From contig JAGWIG010000027.1 of the NCBI GenBank assembly GCA_028873515.1, positions 1-34,722 on the forward strand: a DNA stretch of 34,722 bases. The letters run 5' to 3'. Numbering within the stretch: the stretch's first letter is position 1; each line of letters opens with the position of its first letter. The notes under the pieces are model-generated. The model made no database searches. It was given only the letters and a program-made list of their open reading frames with translations, and was not told the origin of the DNA. The stretch comes from Pseudomonadota bacterium. Its GTDB lineage: Bacteria > Pseudomonadota > Gammaproteobacteria > Burkholderiales > REEB80. Both the position numbers and the translations under genes were made by a program. Positions 7,796 through 10,027 of this stretch are shown here, in pieces.

Positions 7796-8230
7796 TCAGA
7801 TGTGCAAAGGAATCACTTCAACAGGCAGACTTGCCCCTTTGGCAACATTCCTGGCGACAGCGCTCATAAGTTCACCAACCCTGGGTGACAAGTTACGGCT
7901 TCCGATAACAATACGATCCATATGGTTCGCTTGCGCAAAATCAATAATGGTTTGAACAGGATTACCCGCAACTATATGGCACGCATAGGGCAGTCCTGCC
8001 CTATCCAGTAAAGCACATACCGAAGACAATTCCCTCTCACCCCGCTCCTGCTGTGGATTATCAACACTAAGACCAGAAAGATTTGTTTCCAGATCATAAT
8101 TCATCGGGAGCTGGACATTAAGTAAATGAAGTTCAATCTTTTCACTACCTGTCAACATACGTTCTATCAAAACAATGGCAGCATGCTCACTGCTGGGCGA
8201 TCCATCCACTGGAAGAAGAAAACGTTTCAT
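7796..8230 (-). CDS. Universal stress protein (UspA family), degenerate nucleotide loop
   Basis: A 144-residue single-domain Usp protein, cytoplasmic and likely dimeric. It starts MKRFLLPVDGSPSSEHA, the usual first strand and loop. The C-terminal nucleotide-binding segment reads IGSRNLSPRVGELMSAVARN. The canonical G-2x-G-9x-G-(S/T) pattern is broken: the second glycine is asparagine and the terminal GS is SA. It may therefore not bind ATP, unlike the divergent usp at 8809. It lies 14 bases behind the hsp20 gene on the same strand, so the two probably form one operon driven by the FNR-type promoter upstream of hsp20. The exact role is unknown. Usp proteins support survival in energy or oxygen limitation. 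Confidence 0.9.
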   Translation of the reverse strand: MKRFLLPVDGSPSSEHAAIVLIERMLTGSEKIELHLLNVQLPMNYDLETNLSGLSVDNPQQERGERELSSVCALLDRAGLPYACHIVAGNPVQTIIDFAQANHMDRIVIGSRNLSPRVGELMSAVARNVAKGASLPVEVIPLHI

Positions 8231-8244
8231 TCATTCTCGATGAT

Positions 8245-8637
8245 CTAGACAATATCGATTGGCGTGGAATTCCCCAGGAATTTTGGCAAGGTCAGATTCA
8301 GCACATCGCGATCATAATGTGCCCTGGCATGGACAAGATCAATTTCAACCGGAAGGCTGAATCTGCGTGAAACACAAAAAGCTTTCGCATCAGCACCATC
8401 CGTCTGACACAGGCCAATAAAAACGGAAGGGTTGATACATATTGTAACTTCATGCCCTTTAACGCTGATCTGTATATCTTCACGTTTAACACCTGGAATA
8501 TTCACACAAACATGATAAGCATCTGCACTTTCATCAATTTCCAGACGGCTTTTGATATAATCCATATCAATCAGATTTAAGGCATCTTCACCTTCACTCC
8601 CTGATTTCAGCTGCTTATCAGTACGCTTAATCTTCAT
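8245..8637 (-). CDS. Small heat-shock protein (Hsp20 / alpha-crystallin family)
   Basis: An ATP-independent holdase chaperone that binds unfolding proteins. From ATG at 8637 the protein has 130 residues. The alpha-crystallin domain covers about residues 38-120, with VNIPGVKREDIQISVKGHEV and the closing LNLTLPKF strand. The C-terminus ends in IDIV, the I-x-I/V motif used for oligomer assembly. The reading frame is open for another 26 codons upstream. I chose the internal ATG because GAGGAA lies six bases before it, and because the longer version would place the start right on top of an FNR box and promoter. It heads an operon with the usp gene 14 bases downstream. A TATAATAT -10 region and a perfect FNR box (8702-8715) precede it. 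Confidence 0.9.
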   Translation of the reverse strand: MKIKRTDKQLKSGSEGEDALNLIDMDYIKSRLEIDESADAYHVCVNIPGVKREDIQISVKGHEVTICINPSVFIGLCQTDGADAKAFCVSRRFSLPVEIDLVHARAHYDRDVLNLTLPKFLGNSTPIDIV

Positions 8638-8701
8638 TAATGATTCCTCACTTAAACCCTCAACTATTACTGCTATATTATAATCAGAAAAAAAGATTCT
8701 T

Positions 8702-8715
8702 TTGATCTTCATCAA
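8702..8715 (-). promoter_or_regulatory. FNR box and promoter of hsp20-usp operon
   Basis: TTGATCTTCATCAA is a perfect match to the FNR consensus TTGAT-N4-ATCAA. On the minus strand a TATAATAT stretch (8682 to 8675) follows and predicts a transcript start near 8668. The box centre then lies about 40-41 bases upstream of that start, the class II activator position. The hsp20 ATG is at 8637, leaving a leader of about 30 bases. Confidence 0.75.
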
Positions 8716-8738
8716 TTCAAGGGTTTTATATATCCCGA

Positions 8739-8752
8739 TTGATACAGATCAA
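8739..8752 (+). promoter_or_regulatory. FNR box and promoter of divergent usp gene
   Basis: TTGATACAGATCAA is a second perfect FNR consensus, 37 bases centre to centre from the first. A TAATAT -10 hexamer at 8774-8779 predicts a start near 8786, about 41 bases from the box centre and 23 bases before the usp ATG. This is again class II spacing. Confidence 0.75.
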
Positions 8753-8808
8753 TTATCCTGATTCTAAACAAATTAATATTCAATCAAGCTCATCCAAAAG
8801 GCGTCATC

Positions 8809-9255
8809 ATGTTTAAACGTATTCTTGTTCCAACCGACGGTAGTAAATCTGCGAACCAGGCACTAAAAATGGCTATTGGATTTGCCGTAGATCAAGGAGC
8901 AAAACTCCGTGTTGTACACATCCTGGAAGATTTACCTTGGCAGTTTAATGTCAGTCCGATGGCTATTGACATGACCCCGCTATTAAAAAGCTGGCGTAAA
9001 TCTGGTGAGGATATCCTGAAAAAAGCCATGCTTCAGGCTAAAAAAGCCGGACTTATTCCAGAAGAGTCCCTGATTGAAGCAATCGGGGAAACCCCTTCAA
9101 ATTTAATCAGTAATGAAGCTCAAGCATGGAATGCTGATCTTATAATCGTTGGCACTCATGGTCGTCACGGGATTGAAAGGCTTTTTCTCGGAAGCGTTGC
9201 GGAAGGAATCGCTCGCACCAGTCCCATTCCAGTCATGCTGGTGCATAAAAAATAA
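8809..9255 (+). CDS. Universal stress protein (UspA family), ATP-binding type
   Basis: A 148-residue single-domain Usp protein. It begins MFKRILVPTDGSKSANQA, and the C-terminal loop reads GTHGRHGIERLFLGS, an intact G-2x-G-9x-G-S nucleotide-binding motif. It is therefore expected to bind ATP, in contrast to the other usp gene in this cluster. AAAGG sits eight bases before the ATG. The gene diverges from hsp20-usp and converges with fnr, leaving only 34 bases to the fnr stop. The class II FNR-type promoter upstream predicts induction when oxygen is low. The physiological target is not known. Confidence 0.93.
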   Translation: MFKRILVPTDGSKSANQALKMAIGFAVDQGAKLRVVHILEDLPWQFNVSPMAIDMTPLLKSWRKSGEDILKKAMLQAKKAGLIPEESLIEAIGETPSNLISNEAQAWNADLIIVGTHGRHGIERLFLGSVAEGIARTSPIPVMLVHKK

Positions 9256-9289: not shown

Positions 9290-10027
9290 CTAATCCTGGC
9301 TAATTAATGTTTCTAATTTTCCCATATCTTTGATTATTATATGCTTTTGATGAACTTCGATGTAACCATCAAACTGAAATGATGAAAATATCCTCGAAAT
9401 CGTTTCAATCTTAAGTCCAAGATAGCTTGCGATTTCAGATCGGGACATCCGCAAATAAAACTCGTGTCTGGAAAAACCTCTTGCCGCATATCGCTGTGAT
9501 AAATTTAAAAGGAAAGCTGCAAGCCGCTCATCAGCTCGCATTGAGCCTAATAACATCATGACATTCTGATCACGCATAATTTCACGACTCATAAGCTTAT
9601 GAAAATGGTGCTGGAGAGAGTTACATGATTGCAAAACAGACTCAAGGTGATGGTACTGAATCAGACAAATTTCTGAGTCCTCAAGCGCTACCGCATCGCA
9701 AATATAGACATCCGATGCTATACCATCCATGCCGATAATTTCACCGCTCATATGAAAACCGGTCACCTGCTCACGACCATCCTGATTACTGAGAGTGCTC
9801 TTGAAAAAGCCGCTTCGCACAGCGTAAATCGCATGAAAATCATCACCTGCCCTGTATAAGGATTCTCCAACCCGTAAACGACGCTTGGTCTGAATCAACT
9901 CATCAAGCTGATCCAGATCCTCAGTGGATAAACCCATTGGTAGACATAACGTATGTAGGCTACACGATGCGCAGGTATTTTTTAGCTGATTAACATTGAA
10001 AGAAATAGGGGATGTTGTATAAGCCAT
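9290..10027 (-). CDS. fnr: FNR-type oxygen-sensing transcription regulator
   Basis: A 245-residue CRP/FNR-family regulator. The N-terminus carries C-x2-C-x5-C (C19, C22, C28) and a fourth cysteine at C121 (in SEICLIQ), the same arrangement as the four ligands of the [4Fe-4S] cluster in E. coli FNR. An extra C110 is nearby. The cyclic-nucleotide-like beta roll spans about residues 30-140, followed by the dimer helix and a helix-turn-helix. The recognition helix reads LKIETISRIFSSFQ and keeps the E-x2-S-R pattern that reads TTGAT half-sites. GGGAAG lies nine bases before the start. Two perfect FNR boxes stand about 1.3 kb away, between the neighbouring hsp20 and usp genes, making this gene their obvious regulator. 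No FNR box was seen in its own promoter. Confidence 0.93.
   Translation of the reverse strand: MAYTTSPISFNVNQLKNTCASCSLHTLCLPMGLSTEDLDQLDELIQTKRRLRVGESLYRAGDDFHAIYAVRSGFFKSTLSNQDGREQVTGFHMSGEIIGMDGIASDVYICDAVALEDSEICLIQYHHLESVLQSCNSLQHHFHKLMSREIMRDQNVMMLLGSMRADERLAAFLLNLSQRYAARGFSRHEFYLRMSRSEIASYLGLKIETISRIFSSFQFDGYIEVHQKHIIIKDMGKLETLISQD

Follow-up and report, generated by a model that had tools for sequence, protein, structure and literature searches.

The window, by which we mean the whole 34,722-nucleotide stretch of DNA that was analyzed, contains two divergently oriented stress genes next to a gene for an FNR-type regulator. On the minus strand, hsp20 (8245–8637) encodes a small heat shock protein (sHSP) of 130 amino acids (Pfam HSP20, E 2.3e-9, over the cutoff), and its ATG start agrees with that of hsp20 in a sister species. 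Downstream on the same strand, at a distance of 14 bases, follows the universal stress protein gene usp1 (7796–8230, minus; Pfam Usp, E 1.4e-18, over the cutoff), an arrangement that is consistent with an operon of the two genes. The divergent neighbor usp2 (8809–9255, plus) encodes another universal stress protein (Pfam Usp, E 4.1e-33, over the cutoff), which as a query against the genome contigs returned three remote matches only. Beyond usp2 lies the gene of the regulator FNR-A (9290–10027, minus).

The stretch between hsp20 and usp2 (8638–8808) comprises 171 bases with a GC content of 29.8%, compared with 44.8% for the whole window, and holds two exact copies of the palindrome TTGAT-N4-ATCAA: box 1 (TTGATCTTCATCAA, 8702–8715), assigned by prediction to the hsp20 promoter on the minus strand, and box 2 (TTGATACAGATCAA, 8739–8752), likewise assigned to the usp2 promoter on the plus strand. 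A scan of the window revealed no further exact copy. According to a first-order Markov model, 0.119 exact boxes are expected per window and 0.0024 in the 171-base gap. When up to two mismatches are allowed, the window yields 32 matches against 31.07 expected: loose matches thus occur at chance level, and only the exact match carries weight.

Each box faces a candidate −10 element of the sequence TAATAT, at 8675–8680 on the minus strand for hsp20, where it forms part of TATAATAT (8682–8675), and at 8774–8779 on the plus strand for usp2. The positions of both boxes and both −10 regions, as well as the length of the gap, are those that an initial annotation of this DNA had given. The usp2 hexamer is separated from box 2 by 21 bases, and since the minus-strand element read as TAATAT is likewise 21 bases off box 1, the layout is symmetric. 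Assuming transcription starts 7 bases past the hexamer, both box centers would fall arithmetically at −40.5, where class II sites are centered near −41.5 and overlap the −35 place, and each box would lie at −77.5 relative to the predicted start of the opposite promoter; if the minus hexamer is alternatively read as TATAAT (8682–8677), the same arithmetic places the center of box 1 at −38.5. A sigma-70 hexamer pair was sought at the hsp20 and usp2 promoters and not found, as is expected where promoters depend on an activator. The sigma-32 heat-shock promoter consensus is CTTGAAA-N11-16-CCCCATNT; the best sigma-32-like site before hsp20 has 4 mismatches to it and was equalled in 75 of 200 shuffles.

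Exact boxes and −10 spacing across the genome

The genome (3.42 Mb) contains 19 exact boxes, compared with one occurrence of a reversed control pattern, and the sister genome contains 15, compared with none. Considering these 19 boxes on both strands, a TANNNT hexamer follows at a gap of 21 bases in 8 of 38 orientations; at the other gaps in the range of 10–40 it occurs at most three times at any one and 18 times in total over 30 gaps. Because the two boxes of the window had themselves suggested the 21-base gap, they were removed from the repeat count, which leaves the hexamer at gap 21 in 6 of 34 orientations and at most three times at every other gap. A looser search for TTGA-N6-TCAA followed by the 21-base gap and TANNNT returned 10 cases, versus 4 for its control. 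Since eight of the 19 exact boxes fall within an open reading frame or straddle its end, exactness by itself is no proof of function.

The boxes with the 21-base gap precede hsp20, usp2, ppsA (phosphoenolpyruvate synthase), a narG-like gene, a gene for a copper-type P-type ATPase, one whose resemblance to Tdt transporters is weak (69.9 bits, below the cutoff), a gene at C146 for which NCBIfam gave no match, and a regulator-like gene at C123, which was named by eye. The ppsA, narG and P-type ATPase sequences run off the fetched stretch and are incomplete; the narG-like gene (L043:2-1768), which has an exact box at class II spacing, reaches 1021.8 bits in this truncated form against a cutoff of 1084.15. 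Judging from this gene, the species may be capable of nitrate respiration.

Conservation in a sister species and recurrence in the order

For conservation we rely on one comparison, namely with one other species of the family. Its corresponding locus keeps the gene order of kup, divergent hsp20 and usp, the FNR-type gene, and transport genes; over the full alignment usp2 is 70% and hsp20 49% identical to its counterpart, and FNR-A, kept in place, is 80% identical. A lack of the boxes in close relatives had been named in the initial annotation as an outcome that would speak against it; the one relative compared passes this check, since both boxes are kept as exact palindromes, again at a pitch of 37 bases: They are identical at 12/14 and 13/14 positions, including all ten palindrome letters in each. 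In an ungapped alignment anchored on the boxes, the 23-base spacer between them (8716–8738) retains its length and only 5/23 of its sequence, the flanks are identical at 22/64 and 26/54 positions, and the intergenic gap of the sister measures 167 bases versus 171 here. At the places 21 bases from the boxes, the sister carries TAACAT on the usp side and TAGACT on the hsp20 side, the latter being a weak −10. A counterpart of usp1 is absent from the sister locus, and a search of the whole sister genome (E ≤ 1e-5) gave no match to it. Consequently, the proposed joint control of two different Usps is narrower than initially annotated and would hold for this species only.

We fetched the flanks of the exact boxes in both genomes and compared the encoded proteins. 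Pairs emerged only for this region and for one at C146, making these two the only exact-box targets found to be common to the two species compared; most exact boxes are therefore not shared. The same comparison gave one extra match, between hsp20 of the window and a second hsp20 of the sister. This second hsp20, located elsewhere in the sister genome, has an exact box within its reading frame (L073:1501-1514), which is probably a chance or coding match.

The hsp20 products of the window and the sister locus share three cysteines (44, 67, 88); cysteines are uncommon in small heat shock proteins. In a search of 399 genomes of the order, these two proteins scored about 258 bits versus 62.6 for the next best, a gap that overstates their isolation because the hsp20 model was built from the same two genus members, which match it by construction.

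To place the locus in a wider context, we surveyed 116 hsp20 and usp loci in other genomes of the order, the sister locus having been left out of the main counts (117 loci before its removal). The sample outside the genus covers 48 of 53 hsp20 matches and 68 among the usp matches listed, mostly best scores first. Boxes with at most one mismatch occur within 300 bases before 10 of 51 hsp20 and 13 of 70 usp genes, among them exact boxes before 3 hsp20 and 6 usp genes, and the reversed control pattern was found in 0/121. A variant count from −300 to +10 that includes the sister gives 12/52 and 14/71, respectively. These boxes, too, show the spacing: in 7/25, TANNNT follows at a gap of 21 or 22 bases, and the other 24 gaps together account for six. 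The gene starts of the survey were extrapolated from alignments, which is why several hsp20 boxes seemed to lie less than 40 bases from the start. In 9 of 11 hsp20 loci checked, a stop codon separates the box from the alignment and candidate starts lie about 80–210 bases past the box, supporting an upstream box, and in the other two (L084 and L129) its placement relative to the start is ambiguous. One locus omitted from the main count (L100) probably belongs with the true cases and would raise the hsp20 figure to 11/51; two loci (L117 and L123) come from one genus and are not independent.

Exact boxes paired at a distance of 10–40 bases occur in 8 of the 399 genomes. Two of these are the members of this genus, with hsp20 and usp next to the pair; in the other six, no hsp20 or usp was found in the fetched flanks of the pair. 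The double symmetric layout is thus particular to this genus within the 399-genome sample. Another family of the order has a divergent hsp20/usp pair with a single exact box that faces usp and is followed 21 bases on by TATAGT (L116:1538-2560); this layout is perhaps an independent or ancestral form.

Candidate regulators and competing readings

ExxSR is the recognition-helix motif of FNR, and its recognition Glu matters for the reading of TTGAT. The initial annotation had pointed to an FNR protein with four cluster cysteines beside the locus; it is borne out by FNR-A, whose Cys 19, 22, 28 and 121 we take to be the binders of the cluster. With 240.9 bits, FNR-A exceeds the NCBIfam Fnr cutoff of 228, and its alignment with a solved FNR-type regulator (PDB 5cvr/5e44) has E 1.6e-55; its four cysteines are aligned with cysteines of the solved regulator, and its recognition helix reads ETISR, as does that of the solved FNR.

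The genome encodes three FNR-type proteins. FNR-B, located beside a hemN-like gene (L044:789-1589 here and L080:1006-1749 in the sister), keeps the four cysteines and scores 191.4 bits, under the NCBIfam Fnr cutoff. In both species its helix reads NATISR; the Ala at the position of the recognition Glu suggests that the DNA target has changed. FNR-C (L033:4232-5104), which shares 59% identity with FNR-A, has no N-terminal cysteine triplet and keeps ExxSR as ETVSR. A family search in the sister retrieved the counterparts of FNR-A and FNR-B plus a weak third match under the cutoff, by eye another kind of regulator, and no counterpart of FNR-C. In view of the two further FNR-type proteins, the identity of the binder has to be deduced: we infer that FNR-A is the likeliest reader of both boxes.

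The divergent arrangement with two FNR boxes is very probably real. The best explanation, to which we assign a probability of roughly 0.82, would be a pair of class II FNR promoters, divergent and dependent on an activator, on which FNR-A acts at low oxygen; that two such promoters stand back to back, as initially annotated, is supported by the conservation in the sister and by the recurrence of the −10 spacing at further exact boxes in the genome. At low oxygen, the 4Fe-4S dimer of FNR-A would bind each box, stand in for the −35 element and recruit RNA polymerase to the −10 located 21 bases past the box, with one polymerase facing hsp20 (together with usp1) and the other facing usp2. The outcome would be a set of proteins for low-oxygen protein protection and dormancy. 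That FNR binds here, in which direction it regulates, how the genes respond to oxygen, what their products do and which FNR paralogue acts are all inferred from the sequence.

As an addition to this explanation, the two boxes might constitute one coupled unit with mutually exclusive or balanced promoters. The two dimers, 37 bases or about 3.5 turns apart, would then either have to share the 23-base spacer, the site expected for the alpha subunits of the polymerases, or compete for it. What speaks for such coupling is the exact 37-base pitch in both species despite the divergence of the spacer sequence and the change in gap length; this is one species pair, however, a 23-base stretch may escape insertions and deletions by chance, and in the 399 genomes searched, exact boxes paired at 10–40 bases were not found beside hsp20 or usp outside the genus. 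We therefore regard coupling as rather unlikely. Somewhat less likely again is its fullest form, a symmetric switch whose two class II polymerases have the fixed-length spacer in common, thereby coupling a cysteine-bearing sHSP to a Usp; if it were true, the ratio of chaperone to Usp would be set by spacing and not by box strength.

A different reading accepts the boxes as real FNR-family sites and has them read mainly by FNR-B or FNR-C. In its favor are the presence of three FNR-type proteins and the recognition motif kept in FNR-C, which, without the N-terminal cysteine triplet, may answer another signal. Both boxes persist, however, in the sister, where FNR-C was not found, FNR-B has Ala instead of the recognition Glu in both species, and it is FNR-A that adjoins the locus in both; we consider this reading improbable. 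That the palindromes are chance occurrences and hsp20 is driven by a heat-shock promoter, a view that could draw on the chance level of loose matches in the window and on those exact boxes of the genome that fall within reading frames or straddle their ends, is highly implausible given the exact pair, its conservation, the −10 phasing, and the failure of any sigma-32-like site to clearly beat the shuffles.

Comparison with known low-oxygen systems

The mycobacterial DosR hypoxia regulon resembles the locus in that it unites Usps with an alpha-crystallin chaperone, HspX; DosR itself is a response regulator of an unrelated family with another binding site than FNR. The Usps of this regulon are covered in the accessible part of a review (PMC8509486). 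From the same part we learn that UspK and other Usps of Pseudomonas aeruginosa are Anr-dependent and induced upon oxygen loss: As predicted here, Usps are placed under an FNR homologue, and the accessible text describes no hsp20 paired with them. In Burkholderia cenocepacia, the low-oxygen-activated lxa locus likewise brings together Usps, six in number, and a heat shock protein; it differs in its size of 50 genes and in that an Anr-like regulator is only proposed, as far as the available portions of the sources go (PMC6127331, PMC8509486). According to the excerpted text of a further study, both small heat shock proteins and Usps increase under micro-oxic conditions in B. cenocepacia H111 (PMC3759415).

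The closest precedent for the chaperone is the sHSP gene RLV_1399 of Rhizobium leguminosarum, which has two anaeroboxes and is induced about 50-fold under microaerobic conditions via FnrN (PMC11784457, accessible part). In both cases an sHSP gene is equipped with FNR-family boxes; in RLV_1399, however, the two boxes precede one gene, at −87.5 and −143.5 relative to its start codon, and the portion of the article at hand mentions no divergent usp. The published FnrN-dependent sHSP, the reviewed Anr-dependent Usps and our survey of the order together contradict the initial assertion that it is unusual for FNR to drive a heat-shock chaperone, at least on the basis of the accessible text of PMC11784457 and the other sources. 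A paper describing a divergent FNR-controlled hsp20/usp pair of this kind was not found in the open-licence literature. Low-oxygen control of sHSP and Usp genes was already known, as far as the cited sources could be consulted, and the locus, well supported as a predicted pair of class II FNR promoters, adds a new instance: a clear, conserved case of bacteria placing sHSPs and Usps under an oxygen sensor. The survey of the order suggests that hsp20 and usp come under FNR repeatedly, which would make protein protection at low oxygen a general and testable output of FNR.
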